5,355 bases of DNA from assembly GCA_017378975.1 (NCBI GenBank), contig JAFNXT010000050.1, forward strand, positions 1 to 5,355. Direction: 5' to 3'. This stretch comes from Oscillospiraceae bacterium (GTDB taxonomy: Bacteria > Bacillota > Clostridia > Oscillospirales > Oscillospiraceae). The notes below the pieces were generated by a model. That model saw only the letters and a program-made list of their open reading frames with translations, was not told where the DNA came from and searched no databases. The translations under genes and the position numbers were made by a program. Shown here piece by piece: positions 1 to 5,355 of this stretch (within the stretch, counting starts at the first letter, position 1; the number at the start of each line of letters is the position of its first letter).

Positions 1-323
1 ACGAAGCGCTTTTGCGGGTGGTCGGTACGGACGGCATCGTCCTCAGCGGGACGGATGCCGTGTATACGGGAGCCCGGATCGAGCTTTATTCGGACGGTAC
101 GCGGATGGACAGCGTCACCGTGGCGGTGATGGGCGATCTGGACGGCAACGGCACGGTGGATACCACGGACTATCTGCGGATCAAGTCGGCATTCCTGGAG
201 CGTTATACGATGGGGACCGCCGAGGCGATCGCGGCGGATGTGGACGGTGACGGCAGTATCACCGCGACGGATCATCTGAGGATCAAAAAGCATTTCCTTG
301 GCACTTACGACTTACTGGTGTAA
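1..323 (+). CDS. C-terminal end of a dockerin-bearing secreted protein (5' partial)
   Basis: The gene enters from the left edge; reading is open from codon position 3, giving 106 visible residues and a TAA stop. An in-frame TTG at 12 should not be taken as the start, because the matching codons in the gene at 2417-4381 lie deep inside that protein. Visible residues 1-43 are the end of the pre-dockerin beta-rich segment. Residues 44-104 are a type I dockerin with two 12-residue calcium loops: DLDGNGTVDTTD (ligand positions 1,3,5,9,12 = D,D,N,D,D) and DVDGDGSITATD (D,D,D,T,D), each followed by an LRIK helix. Known role of the family: calcium-dependent binding to a cohesin on a scaffold or surface protein. 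The catalytic head lies outside the window, so the enzyme type is unknown. The first 300 nt match 4059-4358 with 7 mismatches. It precedes the next gene by 44 bp and probably shares its transcript. Confidence 0.93.
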   Translation, partial: EALLRVVGTDGIVLSGTDAVYTGARIELYSDGTRMDSVTVAVMGDLDGNGTVDTTDYLRIKSAFLERYTMGTAEAIAADVDGDGSITATDHLRIKKHFLGTYDLLV

Positions 324-355: not shown

Positions 356-371
356 AGGAGATGGATCATGG
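356..371 (+). promoter_or_regulatory. Ribosome binding site and conserved leader of gene 2
   Basis: AGGAG at 356-360 lies 7 nt before the ATG at 368 and fixes that start. The 16-nt block AGGAGATGGATCATGG recurs with one mismatch at 2405-2420 before the next gene, so the initiation region was duplicated along with the gene. Confidence 0.85.
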
Positions 372-2359
372 ATAAGAAAGCATTCAAAAGGATATTATCT
401 TTCATCGTCGCGCTGGTGCTTTTGGTGTCTGTATTGCCGGTGCTTCCGGTGACACCGGTCCACGCGGTGACGACGAATCAGAAGAATATCGCGGCCAGAG
501 CGGACTATCTGTACAGCCTGACCTGGGTGGCGCAGAAAACGGTCTCGGCCCACGCATACAATTATTATTATACCTACTATGCGGGCAACACCTACCATTT
601 GCCCTACGGTCAGGGTGATACGTCCTACTATATCGGCTATGGCGTTACCCCTGAGAAGTTCGTGGAAGCGGCATCCGATCCGAACAGCGTGTTCTATCGG
701 TACAAGTCCTATGCGGGCTCCTGGTACTCCACTTACTACATCTCGGACTGCTCCGGCTTCGTTTCCTGGTGCTGGGGCCTGACGGCAAAGCAGTCCACCC
801 GGTCTCTGGCCAACTATTCCGATTATGTCGGTTCTGTGACTACGTCCAATATCCGTAACCGGTTGCAGATCGGTGACGCGCTGAACCGCTATGACTACCA
901 CGTGGTGCTGGTGACGGACCTGATCTATGACAGCGCCGGCAACCTGACCACCATCGAGATCACGGAGCAGACGATCCCCGAGACCAAGCGTAGCTATTAT
1001 ACGCCCTCCGGGCTGGCGCAGGCCTATGCCAGCTATGACGGTATCTACAGATATCAAGGCACCGTGCCGGAGGCACCGTATTACGAGGAAGTTCGGGAAG
1101 AGACCTGGATCGAGAAGGCCTGCTTCGACGTGATGGTCTACCGGGACCGGAACAAGGATATCTCCCACCTGTCCGACGCGGATCTGAAGAAGCACTGGCT
1201 GGAGAATGGCATCAAGGAAGGCAGACCCTCCAGCGTGATCCTGGACCTTGGGTTCTATCGCAACAACAATCCGGATCTGAAGGAAGCCTTCGGGGACGAT
1301 TGGGAAGCGATCTATGAGCATTTCATAACGAAGGGCTATCAGGAGCACCGAAAGTCCTCGGCGCTTTTCGACGGAAGCTACTATTGTGAGAAGTATCCGG
1401 ATGTGAAAGAGAATTATAAGGAGAAGTATCTTCTCCACTATATCGACCACGGCATGAGAGAGGGCCGCAGAGCGAGCCTGACTTATGACCCGGATTACTA
1501 CCTGTTCATCCGGCCCGATGTGGCCGAGACCTGGCCCGATGATTACACCATGGCGGCCAAGCACTATGCCGGTCACGGCATCAACGCCCAGACCGTGGCT
1601 TATGATCACAGCGCGCCGGTGATCTCTGGTGTGAAGATCTCCGATGTCGGAGAGGGAGGTTACACGGTGACTTGTACCGTGAAGGATGACTGGCAGGTCA
1701 ACAAAGTGGTGTTCCCCACCTGGACGCTCCTGAACGATCAGGACGATCTGGCGGCGCACTTCATGGAGACCCAGAAGGGCACCAAGAACGGCGATACCTA
1801 CACCTTCCGGGTGGATGCCGCGGATCACAACTGGGAGAGTGGCCAGTATGTCACCCATATCTATGCGGAGGACCGGGGCGGCAACCGGACCCAGTTGGTC
1901 TTGGACGTGGTCGAGGTGAAGGGCAAGGCGGAGTTCATCACGACGGTCGCCGGCGCTTCTTACTTCGTCAGCGGAGGCTGTCTGAAGAACGTGAAGCTTG
2001 GTACCACGGTACAGGCGATGCTGGCACAGTTGGAGGACAGCGATCTTCTGAAGGTGATCAGCGCCGACGGCACCAGGATCGGCGGATCGGCCACCGTCCA
2101 TACGGGAGCCCGTGTGGAGCTCTGGTCGAATGGCGTGCTGGTGGACACCGTGACGGTAGCGGTGCGGGGCGATCTGGACGGGAACGATGAGATCGATTCG
2201 ACGGACTATCTGCGGATCAAGGCCGCGTTCCTTGAGAAGTACGATATGAGCGATGTGGAATACGCGGCAGGCGATGTGGATGGTGACGGTGTCGTCAACA
2301 CCACGGATTATTTGAGGATCATGGAGCATTTCCTCGGGACCTACGACCTGCTGGCGTGA
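368..2359 (+). CDS. Secreted NlpC/P60-type cysteine hydrolase with GBS Bsp-like module and type I dockerin
   Basis: A complete 663-residue protein. Residues 1-33 form a signal peptide (KK/KR positive start, hydrophobic core, likely cleavage after VHA). Residues about 38-235 are an NlpC/P60-like (CHAP-related) head: Cys128 in DCSGFV, His178 in HVVLV after a GDAL turn, and Glu200 in EITEQT form a plausible triad. Such enzymes usually cut peptidoglycan peptide or amide bonds; the substrate here is not shown. Residues 253-409 are four FDxxYY/PDV/EGR repeats, starting near 253, 292, 334 and 373. Residues 416-519 are a GBS Bsp-like module with the FPTWT and NDQDDL signatures. Residues 520-600 are a pre-dockerin segment. 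Residues 601-660 are a dockerin whose loops have ligands D602, D604, N606, D610, D613 and D636, D638, D640, N644, D647. The protein is probably exported and held by a cohesin elsewhere. Residues 64-71 are unusually Tyr-rich. Module order is seen directly; role is inferred from the families. Confidence 0.93.
   Translation: MDKKAFKRILSFIVALVLLVSVLPVLPVTPVHAVTTNQKNIAARADYLYSLTWVAQKTVSAHAYNYYYTYYAGNTYHLPYGQGDTSYYIGYGVTPEKFVEAASDPNSVFYRYKSYAGSWYSTYYISDCSGFVSWCWGLTAKQSTRSLANYSDYVGSVTTSNIRNRLQIGDALNRYDYHVVLVTDLIYDSAGNLTTIEITEQTIPETKRSYYTPSGLAQAYASYDGIYRYQGTVPEAPYYEEVREETWIEKACFDVMVYRDRNKDISHLSDADLKKHWLENGIKEGRPSSVILDLGFYRNNNPDLKEAFGDDWEAIYEHFITKGYQEHRKSSALFDGSYYCEKYPDVKENYKEKYLLHYIDHGMREGRRASLTYDPDYYLFIRPDVAETWPDDYTMAAKHYAGHGINAQTVAYDHSAPVISGVKISDVGEGGYTVTCTVKDDWQVNKVVFPTWTLLNDQDDLAAHFMETQKGTKNGDTYTFRVDAADHNWESGQYVTHIYAEDRGGNRTQLVLDVVEVKGKAEFITTVAGASYFVSGGCLKNVKLGTTVQAMLAQLEDSDLLKVISADGTRIGGSATVHTGARVELWSNGVLVDTVTVAVRGDLDGNDEIDSTDYLRIKAAFLEKYDMSDVEYAAGDVDGDGVVNTTDYLRIMEHFLGTYDLLA
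1100..2359 (+). repeat. Tail copy B of the array-wide direct repeat (complete)
   Basis: The 1260 nt from the ETWIEK codons to the stop match 3122-4381 with no net indel (constant offset 2022). Between the two copies I counted protein differences of 13/169 in the repeat region, 24/106 in the GBS Bsp-like module, 39/81 in the pre-dockerin segment and 22/63 in the dockerin. Partial copies of the same tail are at 1-323 and 5038-5355. Confidence 0.92.
1124..1594 (+). repeat. Four tandem FDxxYY/PDV/EGR protein repeats in gene 2
   Basis: The units start at residues 253, 292, 334 and 373, each about 37-42 residues long. The common skeleton is an aromatic-Asp start, YY or FY, a PD(V/L) turn, an H(Y/F)xxxG helix and EGR or EHR followed by S. 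The fourth unit has degenerated, ending INAQT instead of EGRxxS, and the first lacks the PD turn (NKD there). Similar repeats occur in many secreted bacterial proteins of clostridia and alphaproteobacteria; I know of no established biochemical function. Confidence 0.82.
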
Positions 2360-2368
2360 TCGCGGAGG

Positions 2369-2394
2369 ACAGTCGCTCCGACCGGAAAGACTGT
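2369..2394 (+). other. Intergenic hairpin between genes 2 and 3, without a T-tract
   Basis: ACAGTC (2369-2374) pairs with GACTGT (2389-2394). Inside, TCC (2377-2379) pairs with GGA (2384-2386) around a GACC tetraloop, separated from the outer stem by a 2x2 internal loop. The following bases (AGCTATTTATAGG) hold no run of T, so it is not a standard intrinsic terminator. It could be an RNA processing or stabilising element in a polycistronic message, or chance; no equally strong hairpin was seen in the other two gaps. Confidence 0.4.
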
Positions 2395-2404
2395 AGCTAT
2401 TTAT

Positions 2405-2420
2405 AGGAGATGCATCATGG
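2405..2420 (+). promoter_or_regulatory. Ribosome binding site and conserved leader of gene 3
   Basis: AGGAG at 2405-2409 sits 7 nt before the ATG at 2417. The block AGGAGATGCATCATGG differs by one base from 356-371. An earlier ATG at 2410 directly abuts the AGGAG, which is too close for initiation, so 2417 is the chosen start. Confidence 0.85.
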
Positions 2421-4381
2421 GCAGAGATCTTTTCAAAAGAGTATCGTCGCTCCTCCTTGTGGTGGCGCTGTGTTTGTCTGTTTGTCCGGCCACACCGGTC
2501 CGGTCGGTGCCTGCGGCGACGCAGGACCAGAAGGACATGGTCGCCCGTGCCGACTGGTATTACGGCATCACATGGGTGGCACAGCAGACGGTGCAAGGGT
2601 GGTCCGGTACGTTTTACGCCGGGGGCACCTATCACATCCCTTACGGTCAGCCGATCTACTCCGGTGAATACATAGGCTATGCCGCCACCTTCGAGGAGTT
2701 CCAGACGGCGGCAGCCACGCCGGGCAGTATCTTCTACACCGGCAGAAGCTATTGTGACGGACCTACGGCTCCTTACTATGCGTCGGATTGCTCCTCCTTC
2801 GTTTCCTGGGTGTGGGGCATCGAAAGAAGGACGACCTACTATATCCCCGATGTCTCCACCAGCTTTGGTAAAGTCACCAAAGACAGGGCCACCTACACGC
2901 TGCAGCTCGGTGACGCGCTGAACAGCGCTTCCCATGTGGTGCTGGTCTCGGGGCTGGAGTATGACGGCAACGGCGCGATCACCAGGATCGAGATCACCGA
3001 GCAGACACCCCCTCAGATGAAGCGGAGCTATTACACGCCGAGCCAATTGTATTCGAAATACTCCGCTTACACGATCTTAAGATACTACGGTGACGTTCCG
3101 CCGGCACCGGGGACGGTGGAAGAGACCTGGATCGAGAAAGCCTGCTTCGATGTGATGGTCTACCGGGACCGGAACAAGGATATCTCCCATCTGTCCGACG
3201 CGGATCTGAAGAAGCACTGGAAGGAGCGGGGCATCAAGGAGGGCAGACCCTCCAGTACGATCCTGGACCTTGGGTTCTATCGCAACAACAATCCGGACCT
3301 GAAGGAAGCCTTCGGGGACGATTGGGAAGCGATCTATGAGCACTTCATCACGAAGGGCTATCAGGAACACCGAAAGTCTTCGGCGCTCTTCGATGGCAGC
3401 TACTATTGCAAGAACTACCCGGATGTGGCGGAGAACTATAAAGAACAGTATCTGCTCCACTACATCGACCATGGGCAGGCAGAGGGGCGCAGAGCGAGCC
3501 TGACCTATGACCCGGACTACTATCTGTTCATCCGGCCCGATGTGGCCCAGACCTGGCCCAATGATTACACTATGGCGGCCAGACATTACGCCGGTCACGG
3601 CATCAATGCCCAGACCGAGGCCTACGATCATAGCGCTCCTACCATATCTGATGTGGTCATCTCCGATGTCAGCGCGGCGGGCTACACGGTGACGTGTACC
3701 GTGAAGGATGACTGGGCCATCAGCAAGGTGGTGTTCCCCGCCTGGACGATCCTGAACGATCAGGATGATCTGGCGGAGCAGTTCATGGAGACCCAATTGG
3801 GCACTCCGAACGGCGATACCTACACCTTCCGGGTGGATGCCGCGGATCATAATAATGAAGGCGGCCTGTATATCACCCACATCTACGCGATCGACCGGGG
3901 CGGCAACCAGACCAAGCTGGTGCTGGACCCTGTGGAGGTCAAGGACGAGGTGAAGCGGATCACCGCCATCGCCGGATCGGCTTATTCCGTCGTGGATCAG
4001 TGCCTGAAGGGCGTGAAGCTGGGCACCACGGTGGACGCGCTTCTGACCCAACTGGAGAACGAAGCGCTTTTGCGGGTGGTCGGTACGGACGGCATCGTCC
4101 TCAGCGGAACGGATGCCGTGTACACGGGAGCCCGGATCGAGCTTTATTCGGACGGTACGCGGATGGACAGCGTCACCGTGGCGGTGATGGGCGATCTGGA
4201 CGGCAACGGCACGGTGGATACCACGGACTATCTGCGGATCAAGTCGGCATTCCTGGAGCGGTACGCGATGGGGACCGCCGAAGCGATCGCGGCGGATGTG
4301 GACGGTGACGGCAGTATCACCACGACGGATCATCTGAGGATCAAAAAGCATTTCCTTGGGACCTATGAGCTGTACGGATGA
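2417..4381 (+). CDS. Secreted NlpC/P60-type cysteine hydrolase with GBS Bsp-like module and type I dockerin (paralogue)
   Basis: A complete 654-residue paralogue of the preceding gene, 57 bp downstream of it. The signal peptide covers about residues 1-33 (FKR start, Leu/Val core, likely cleavage near VPA/A). The NlpC/P60-like head spans about 37-225: Cys125 in DCSSFV, His173 in SHVVLV and Glu195 in EITEQT. The Gly usual after Cys-Ser is Ser here, so the triad is kept but the pocket may differ. Four FDxxYY/PDV/EGR repeats (244-400), a GBS Bsp-like module (407-510), a pre-dockerin segment (511-591) and a dockerin (592-651) follow. Dockerin ligands are D593, D595, N597, D601, D604 and D627, D629, D631, T635, D638. 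The two complete heads are clearly related but much less alike than the repeats. A shared YHxPYGQ and YIGY patch upstream of the Cys probably belongs to the active-site region. Export and docking to a cohesin are inferred; the substrate is unknown, with peptidoglycan the leading guess. Confidence 0.93.
   Translation: MGRDLFKRVSSLLLVVALCLSVCPATPVRSVPAATQDQKDMVARADWYYGITWVAQQTVQGWSGTFYAGGTYHIPYGQPIYSGEYIGYAATFEEFQTAAATPGSIFYTGRSYCDGPTAPYYASDCSSFVSWVWGIERRTTYYIPDVSTSFGKVTKDRATYTLQLGDALNSASHVVLVSGLEYDGNGAITRIEITEQTPPQMKRSYYTPSQLYSKYSAYTILRYYGDVPPAPGTVEETWIEKACFDVMVYRDRNKDISHLSDADLKKHWKERGIKEGRPSSTILDLGFYRNNNPDLKEAFGDDWEAIYEHFITKGYQEHRKSSALFDGSYYCKNYPDVAENYKEQYLLHYIDHGQAEGRRASLTYDPDYYLFIRPDVAQTWPNDYTMAARHYAGHGINAQTEAYDHSAPTISDVVISDVSAAGYTVTCTVKDDWAISKVVFPAWTILNDQDDLAEQFMETQLGTPNGDTYTFRVDAADHNNEGGLYITHIYAIDRGGNQTKLVLDPVEVKDEVKRITAIAGSAYSVVDQCLKGVKLGTTVDALLTQLENEALLRVVGTDGIVLSGTDAVYTGARIELYSDGTRMDSVTVAVMGDLDGNGTVDTTDYLRIKSAFLERYAMGTAEAIAADVDGDGSITTTDHLRIKKHFLGTYELYG
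3122..4381 (+). repeat. Tail copy C of the array-wide direct repeat (complete)
   Basis: Collinear with 1100-2359 with no net indel. Its last part (4059-4358) is almost identical to 1-300 (7 mismatches), whereas the same part of copy B is far more divergent. The final codons differ again: copy C ends GTYELYG, while copies A and B end GTYDLLV and GTYDLLA. Confidence 0.92.
3146..3616 (+). repeat. Four tandem FDxxYY/PDV/EGR protein repeats in gene 3
   Basis: The units start at residues 244, 283, 325 and 364 and align one to one with those of gene 2. The second unit (LGFYRNNNPDL through EHRKSS) is identical between the two complete genes. The fourth again ends INAQT, so that degeneration predates the duplication. 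Confidence 0.82.
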
Positions 4382-4395
4382 AGGGGGATATGATG
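4382..4395 (+). promoter_or_regulatory. Ribosome binding site deciding the start of gene 4
   Basis: AAGGGGG occupies 4381-4387, with its first base inside the previous stop codon. Two in-frame ATGs follow, at 4390 and 4393. The spacing is only 2 nt to the first and 5 nt to the second, so 4393 is preferred; it also gives an MDR start like the MDK start of gene 2. The motif differs from the AGGAGATG leader of genes 2 and 3. Confidence 0.6.
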
Positions 4396-5355
4396 GACAG
4401 ATCAAGACGAGTCTTATCACTGCTGCTGGCATTGGTCCTCACCCTGTCGTCGATCCCGATGATCGCCAACGAGGCCAACGCGGTGGCGTATACCGGATGC
4501 CTGAGCCAGCATGACAGCCGGTGGGGCAGTCTTTCCTATGGCGGAGGTACCATCTCTGCCACCGGTTGCGGCATCCTTTCTCTGGTGAATACGGTCGGTT
4601 ACCTTTCCGGCGAGCGGATGGACATACCTTCCGTTGCCTCCTGGGCCCATCAGATCGGTTCGTTCAATCCGAACGGTCCGGAAGGTGTGTACCGCTTCGT
4701 GCTGTATCCCCGGGTGGAAGCCAAATACGGCAGTACTTACGGCATCAAGCTGGATTGCGGCGATGACGGCGAAGGCTACTGGGAAGGCTCCAACAGCACA
4801 CGGCTGAAGAACCACTTGCTGGGTGGCGGCGTGGCCATCGGCCATGTGCCCAACCACTTCATCGCGATCGTGGGATACGACGCGATCACCAACAAGTATC
4901 ATCTGTATGAATCCTCTCCGACCTCCTTGAGAGGCACCAACTACAACGGCGGCGATGTCTGGGTGACGCAGGCGGCGCTGGCCTCCGGCAGACTGTGTCT
5001 GGACTGGTTCTGTCTGGTGTCCTCCACCCGGAGCCAGGAGACCTGGATCGAGAAGGCCAGCTTCGATGTGATGGTCTACCGGGACCGGAACGTGGATCTG
5101 GCCGGCATGACCGACGCGGAGCTGAAGGCCCATTGGAAGGCCCATGGCATCAAGGAAGGCAGACCCTCCAGTACGATCCTGGATCTGGGCTTCTACCGCA
5201 ACAACAATCCGGACCTGAAGGAAGCCTTTGGGGACGATTGGGAAGCGATCTATAACCATTTCATTACGAAGGGCTATCAGGAGCACCGAAAGTCCTCGGC
5301 ACTCTTCGACGGGAACTACTATTGTGAGCGGTATCCGGATGTGGTGCAGAACTAC
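4393..5355 (+). CDS. Secreted C39-like cysteine peptidase head on the array's shared repeat tail (3' partial)
   Basis: Open from 4393 to the right edge, 321 visible residues and no stop. Residues 1-30 are a signal peptide (RSRR start, Leu-rich core, likely cleavage after ANA). Residues about 36-200 look like a Peptidase_C39_2-type papain-like domain: the QHDSRWG motif at 39, Cys59 in ATGCGILSLVN and His155 in NHFIAIVGYD. The third catalytic residue is uncertain: the usual Asp position reads YESSP, so Glu173 may replace it. C39-like enzymes hydrolyse peptide bonds; some relatives are acyl or peptide transferases. From residue 216 (ETWIEK) the protein switches to the tail of the other genes: repeat 1 (224-260), repeat 2 (to about 302) and the start of repeat 3 (305 on). 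A GBS Bsp-like module and dockerin are expected beyond the edge but not seen. It starts 11 bp after gene 3, consistent with cotranscription. Confidence 0.88.
   Translation, partial: MDRSRRVLSLLLALVLTLSSIPMIANEANAVAYTGCLSQHDSRWGSLSYGGGTISATGCGILSLVNTVGYLSGERMDIPSVASWAHQIGSFNPNGPEGVYRFVLYPRVEAKYGSTYGIKLDCGDDGEGYWEGSNSTRLKNHLLGGGVAIGHVPNHFIAIVGYDAITNKYHLYESSPTSLRGTNYNGGDVWVTQAALASGRLCLDWFCLVSSTRSQETWIEKASFDVMVYRDRNVDLAGMTDAELKAHWKAHGIKEGRPSSTILDLGFYRNNNPDLKEAFGDDWEAIYNHFITKGYQEHRKSSALFDGNYYCERYPDVVQNY
5038..5355 (+). repeat. Tail copy D of the array-wide direct repeat (3' partial)
   Basis: Collinear with 1100-1417 (offset 3938) and 3122-3439. Unit 1 has diverged (VDLAGMTDAELKAHW against KDISHLSDADLKKHW, and Ser replaces Cys before FDV). 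Unit 2 is almost unchanged, with Glu to Asn in YNHF the only change I found between LDLGFY and EHRKSS. The junction with the unrelated C39-like head lies just before 5038. Confidence 0.88.

Follow-up and report, generated by a model that had tools for sequence, protein, structure and literature searches.

Machines of the cellulosome type have been described for cellulose and starch and proposed for mucin; a complex directed at the bacterial cell wall has, as far as we have found, so far only been suggested. The suggestion comes from Ruminococcus champanellensis, where the accessible text reports lysozyme activity of the cellulosome and dockerin-containing wall hydrolases and speaks of a possible "lyticome" (PMC6403190), a term that occurs in no other work among the literature searched. 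For the same organism, the accessible part of a second paper reports GH25 in the scaffoldin ScaK (PMC6780208). In Ruminococcus flavefaciens, RflaF_05439 is described as two NlpC/P60 modules plus an X-dockerin (PDB 4EZY), the latter said in the available text, as an unpublished result, to bind the ScaE cohesin (PMC3573020). Here we describe a stretch of 5355 bp, hereafter the window, that is the entire contig C73 of an Oscillospiraceae genome (G000; 2.02 Mb in 359 contigs, completeness 75.7%, contamination 2.2%) and carries a tandem array of genes in which different catalytic heads are joined to one constant tail ending in a dockerin.

What might such an array be for? We read it as a set of likely secreted, predicted wall-hydrolysing heads that share one dockerin tail and are docked together, and we give this reading a probability of roughly 0.57. 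Its four genes share one orientation. Genes 2 and 3 are complete, whereas gene 1 is represented by its last 106 codons and gene 4 by its first 326.

3..323, + strand: gene 1, last 106 codons; end of the shared tail with a dockerin, the head lying off the contig (Dockerin_1, 51.3 bits)
132-299, + strand: gene 1 dockerin (Dockerin_1, 51.3 bits)
368..2359, + strand: gene 2, 663 amino acids (aa); signal-peptide-like N-terminus, NlpC/P60-like type 1 head, tail, GBS Bsp-like module, dockerin
473..1093, + strand: gene 2 head, NlpC/P60-CHAP-like; predicted catalytic codons Cys 749, His 899, Glu 965, conserved in the type 1 alignment
1100..1600, + strand: helical repeat part of the gene 2 tail, starting at ETWIEK, with FD..YY..NPDL-type repeats; a repeat at the DNA level, helical in the model
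1652..1897, + strand: gene 2 GBS Bsp-like module (PF08481; 43.1 bits, cut-off 31.6)
2168..2332, + strand: gene 2 dockerin (PF00404; above the Pfam cut-off)
2417..4381, + strand: gene 3, 654 aa; same plan as gene 2, the head a second NlpC/P60-like subtype, 50% identical to that of gene 2
2507..3112, + strand: gene 3 head; predicted catalytic codons Cys 2789, His 2933, Glu 2999
3122..4378, + strand: gene 3 tail; repeats, GBS Bsp-like module 3680-3916, dockerin 4190-4357
4378..5355, + strand: gene 4, open at the contig end; signal-peptide-like N-terminus, C39-like head, first 107 tail residues
4471..5034, + strand: gene 4 C39-like head (Peptidase_C39_2 in relatives; P0007 model); predicted catalytic codons Cys 4567, His 4855, Glu 4909
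5038..5355, + strand: start of the constant tail in gene 4, 82% identical to gene 2 over 107 aa

How abrupt is the change from head to tail? The ETWIEK codons begin at 1100, 3122 and 5038 in genes 2, 3 and 4, respectively. Over the 40 bases before this point, genes 2/3 and genes 2/4 agree at 4-7 positions per 20 bases, and over the 60 bases after it at 18-20 per 20. In 120-column windows moved across the junction, agreement rises from 0.57 to 0.93 between genes 2 and 3 and from 0.35 to 0.82 between genes 2 and 4; the 300-nt junction repeat of gene 2 recurs at 92% identity in gene 3 and at 86% in gene 4. An earlier note on this DNA had placed a sharp switch at these three positions, with NlpC/P60-like heads in genes 2 and 3 and a C39-like head in gene 4 on the same tail. 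Base-by-base comparison finds the switch exact in all three genes, and the pairing of heads with the tail is as the note described. The proposed catalytic residues lie exactly where it had put them in gene 2 (Cys128/His178/Glu200) and gene 3 (Cys125/His173/Glu195), while Cys59/His155 of gene 4 is correct when counted from the ATG at 4393 and becomes Cys64/His160 from the ATG at 4378.

Could the head switch in gene 4 be an assembly chimera, or could the contig have been assigned to the wrong genome bin? Three observations speak for such an error: the contig begins and ends within the repeated tail, the bin is fragmented, and the full tail was seen in no other genome searched. Yet the same junction occurs in P0007, a 632-aa protein on another contig (length 4840) that is identical to gene 4 in 320 of the 321 residues between Met6 and the end of the window, and again in 20 further C39-like proteins. 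Because P0007 has this junction elsewhere, we reject a chimera for gene 4. The composition of the contig is also unremarkable, with a GC content of 0.576 (0.527-0.612 in 14 other contigs of the bin) and a tetranucleotide correlation of 0.896 (0.763-0.966 in the same 14), and wrong binning would alter the host, not the array. Either error therefore seems very improbable. The window covers only 107 tail residues of gene 4, and its GBS Bsp-like and dockerin modules lie outside; as far as the data reach, both follow in P0007, which continues past the end of gene 4 into them, so that a dockerin can be assigned to gene 4 by way of this near-identical protein. The positions of the two contig ends within the tail (window 1-323 and 5038-5355) are what one would predict for an assembly interrupted at near-identical copies of an array that continues both ways.

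How many kinds of head does this tail carry? A tail-profile search, with scoring restricted to the 7992 candidates that had most words in common, returned 266 proteins at E 1e-10, and the best 120 of the 266, together with the four own proteins, gave 124 entries. After 26 had been dropped for lack of a 100-aa head or of the tail start, 98 usable heads were left; P0001 is gene 3 itself, so these represent 97 distinct heads. By BLAST they fall into exactly five groups: GH25 (29), NlpC/P60-like type 1 (27, of which 26 distinct), C39-like (22), NlpC/P60-like type 2 (17) and Amidase_3 (3). The type 2 head is present in the window's own genome, on contig C214. Pfam scans of P0016 and P0079 confirmed GH25 and Amidase_3 beside the GBS Bsp-like and dockerin modules, and at E up to 1 both modules were found in 26/26, 17/17 and 21/22 members of the three cysteine-head alignments, the single member without them fitting gene 4, truncated by the contig end. 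Some listed tail proteins lack the repeat part and are reported with PF24893. In gene 2 the repeat part is helical in the model, with ten-residue blocks at 251-360 reaching 86-94 in predicted local distance difference test (pLDDT) score; it had no Pfam match at E up to 1. An NCBIfam scan gave no matches. Elsewhere in this genome, an open frame of 1820 aa (L008, contig C140) bears more distant copies of the tail repeat, and its scanned piece shows ricin-type lectin signals and, by eye, a Cys/His segment.

The predicted active sites are well conserved. Type 1 heads keep Cys in 25/26, His in 26/26 and Glu in 26/26, the Glu being assumed as the third catalytic residue from order and conservation; type 2 heads keep Cys/His/Glu in 17/17; and C39-like heads keep Cys and His in 22/22 each, with Asp (19) or Glu (3) as the third residue. 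With hhalign, the type 1 profile reached 94% probability to NlpC/P60 over 43 columns and 91% to CHAP over 71 columns, above 60 shuffles. The type 2 profile had one weak match among PDB sequences, a cell wall hydrolase at E 0.44, and a viral library search gave no useful match for the fold of the gene 2 head or of the helical repeats. Gene 4 scores 12.8 bits for Peptidase_C39_2, under the cut-off of 24, and since the Pfam gathering score is not reached we call its head C39-like and not a family member. Of the 22 C39-like alignment members, 19 match the same family at E up to 1 (best 4.3e-5), some C39-like homologues carry precomputed PF13529, and the P0007 model matches C39 domains in a fold search. 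Most likely, then, the heads of genes 2 and 3 and that of gene 4 are both papain-like. The earlier note had spoken of two unrelated folds on one tail; this does not stand for the window and does stand for the wider family, and its overall interpretation, enzyme variety on one localising tail, is borne out in part.

In which other company do these heads occur? Searches limited to proteins 0.55-1.75 times the query length, with domains tallied by hand, were made for the gene 2 head and the P0007 C39 head. The gene 2 (type 1) head recurred in 77 proteins, with GBS Bsp-like in 27, GH25 in 11, PG_binding_1 in 6, SH3_3 and PF01473 in 3 each, and SLH and cohesin in 2 each. For the P0007 head, 177 proteins were found, and the best 120 of the 177 carried SLH (18), PF00754 (11), SH3_3 (10) and RicinB_lectin_2 (6). 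Among the matches listed, C39-head proteins with other tails include those of Ruminococcus, Ruminococcaceae, Acutalibacteraceae and Clostridia. Exchange of modules thus runs in both directions, and part of the heads' company is typical of wall enzymes. For that reason, and because GH25 and Amidase_3 heads share the tail and wall-binding partners recur, we infer that peptidoglycan is the likely substrate. Two type 1 relatives, P0135 and P0173, bear the head with cohesin and dockerin on one chain and might be a scaffolding form.

C39 enzymes are proteases. Might the heads instead be proteases or amidases that act on dietary or host (mucin) protein within a mucinolysome- or cellulosome-like complex, and not on peptidoglycan? 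Dockerin-borne peptidases are numerous in Ruminococcus flavefaciens (PMC2930009) and are present in Limousia mucinolysomes (PMC12997984), according to the available parts of both papers. Against this, two of the other heads that the tail carries, GH25 and Amidase_3, belong to families of peptidoglycan enzymes, and the type 1 head is found together with GH25 and with domains that bind peptidoglycan. We consider a dietary or mucin substrate quite improbable.

Is the wall in question the producer's own? SLH, SH3 and PG_binding_1 tails, on which the same heads occur, usually indicate the own wall. The proteins might be the cell's own autolysins, kept by the tail at the wall of the producer to serve growth, division or spore-related processes, the variety of heads being a normal toolkit. 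In favour of such a role, the term GBS Bsp-like occurs ten times in a paper on a streptococcal autolysin (PMC9377611). In contrast, dockerins on all full-length cysteine-head members point to a docked complex, with the qualification that the search profile favours dockerins. The tail is also patchy for a housekeeping function. In genome sets that overlap, it was found in 1/400 genomes of the family at E 1e-40 and matched 71/394 genomes of the order at E 1e-10 (at most four candidates scored per genome), where the listed matches outside the window's own genome extend over parts of the tail only. Among 99 relatives (this genome included), searched at E 1e-3 with the repeat part, no other genome had the full tail; nor did any other among 391 genomes of the class at 1e-50 or 398 of the phylum at 1e-40. 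Two scans of genome contigs yielded no full-length relative and a scan of viral contigs none, the only find being L025:9143-10528 from a Lachnospiraceae metagenome-assembled genome (MAG) labelled Lapin-012. There a Phage_lysozyme2 head is fused to GBS Bsp-like and dockerin modules, and neither Pfam nor the match list shows a repeat part. The end of this tail is met here with yet another type of head. On balance, a set of own autolysins is unlikely, if not negligibly so.

Docking is the other half of our preferred reading, that of a docked set of wall hydrolases. The dockerins of genes 1-3 are above the Pfam cut-off and of type I with two calcium-binding repeats, and the gene 2 and P0007 models match solved dockerins. 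Five dockerins were found in the genome: four belong to proteins that have this tail, gene 1 being recognised by the tail end alone, and the fifth sits on a GDPD enzyme. This last protein (L007:249-2174, contig C261; GDPD at 115.9 bits) might hydrolyse teichoic acid as part of the same docking system.

How do the tails stay alike while the heads differ? Although the heads of genes 2 and 3 are 50% identical, their repeat parts are 92% identical, the highest value among 159 pairs with heads below 56%. The end of gene 1 differs from that of gene 3 at 7 of bases 1-301 (94% identity over the whole 323 nt), whereas it is 68% identical to the end of gene 2. Among the tail proteins, 14 pairs lie on contigs of identical size where 0.27 would be expected under independence, and such contigs are therefore most likely shared; examples are P0028/P0039 (11403), P0018/P0040 (34064) and P0079/P0089 (55016). 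Among 95 proteins (gene 4 with its partial tail, the gene 3 duplicate and P0002 left out), the ten pairs with different heads had a mean tail identity of 0.725, compared with 0.614 for random partners drawn with the second member's head type, and none of 20000 draws was as high. P0039 (GH25) and P0028 (type 1) have repeat parts 96% identical. Homogenisation of tails and movement of heads would both fit this pattern, and recombination inside arrays may account for either.

The genes are closely packed, with intergenic gaps of 44, 57 and 11 bp, the last if gene 4 starts at 4393. Purine-rich, ribosome-binding-like sequences precede genes 2 (AGAAGGAG), 3 (AGGAG at 2405-2409) and 4, where AAGGGGG at 4381-4387, just 5' of 4393, makes this ATG a more likely start than that at 4378. 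Promoters and terminators in the window were not above chance (4 of each; shuffled sequences gave 2.7 and 2.5, respectively). By eye, the products of genes 2, 3 and 4 each begin with what looks like a signal peptide.

Several observations weigh against a docked set of wall hydrolases or against parts of it. The NlpC/P60 profile match of type 1 ends before the His, the Pfam NLPC_P60 match is weak (1/26 at E 0.036), the matches listed in a fold search with the gene 2 model went to other parts of the protein and none to the type 1 head, and the type 1 profile matched only two antibody chains among PDB sequences. No profile similarity was seen among the head groups. One type 1 head, that of P0115, lacks the catalytic Cys. 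RicinB_lectin_2, a non-wall tail, accompanies 20 of the 77 type 1 head relatives. The tail search profile includes the dockerin, and dockerin constancy is thus partly built in; three GH25 proteins (P0026, P0056, P0099) have no listed PF00404, P0026 retaining a dockerin-like end and P0056 and P0099 stopping before the dockerin. No cohesin exceeded the cut-off in this genome, which is 76% complete in 359 contigs; the sole signal, at the start of an open frame on contig C184, reached 21.2 bits against a cut-off of 24.1 over profile positions 3-48 of 139. Shared contigs were deduced from equal sizes. The nearest tail bears the same head in 61 of 95 proteins, with 22.4 expected by shuffling. In 4 of the 10 mixed pairs, each member's tail is closer to that of a same-head protein elsewhere than to that of its contig mate; this holds for one member in 1 pair and for neither in 5. 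That tails ignore head type is rejected by the 61/95 count. As for P0115, Ala replaces the Cys and the full tail is present; its head is probably inactive.

Why place such different heads on one tail? The most likely function, close to the published lyticome idea as far as its accessible text goes (PMC6403190), would be that of a docked set of peptidoglycan hydrolases. Different heads, each meeting the shared tail at one identical, sharp junction, would be hung together by the tail dockerin on a cohesin-bearing surface protein. A muramidase (GH25), an amidase (Amidase_3) and cysteine endopeptidases (NlpC/P60-like, C39-like) would cut different bonds of one polymer, and the tail would fix their site of action, as cellulosomes do for the plant wall. 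More tentatively, this may be a lyticome dedicated to taking bacterial walls apart, a surface machine on the model of the cellulosome, its tail kept uniform by recombination within the array and its muramidase, amidase and cysteine-endopeptidase heads swapped like cassettes; we regard this bolder version as possible though doubtful. If true, the array would let a cell display varied wall-cutting tools from a single anchor. The family offers a concrete list of parts, in which five head groups on one tail could between them cleave glycan, amide and peptide bonds. Its sharp, repeated junction is also a natural case for how heads exchange while a docking tail stays constant.

How does this locus compare with what is already described? 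In modular autolysins and phage endolysins, catalytic domains are likewise exchanged on binding domains, the binding part being a wall-binding domain and not a dockerin tail; we know of no tandem array with homogenised tails among them. By titles and abstract openings, no description of this tail family was found among the literature matches listed, most subscription papers lying outside that scope. The Ruminococcus champanellensis cellulosome is alike in linking a dockerin/cohesin system to wall-cutting enzymes, with a bacterial-lysis complex suggested in the accessible text (PMC6403190), and is unlike in that GH25 is reported, in the part available, within the scaffoldin ScaK (PMC6780208), whereas here five head groups share one long constant tail in tandem. 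RflaF_05439 also has a dockerin-borne NlpC/P60-type cysteine head whose superfamily is visible by structure and not by sequence (PMC3573020); it differs in having two like heads per protein, its abstract mentions neither a GBS Bsp-like module nor a repeat tail, and the accessible text describes no head exchange. The Limousia mucinolysome is similar in that a system of the cellulosome type has been adapted to a different polymer and includes peptidases with dockerins. Unlike the present case, its substrate is mucin, its scaffoldins are identified with binding predicted by AlphaFold3, and the accessible text does not describe a constant tail with exchanged heads (PMC12997984). Dockerin/cohesin systems with wall-cutting enzymes were thus already known; what is new here, as far as we have found, is one constant tail that carries five head groups and is laid out in a tandem array.

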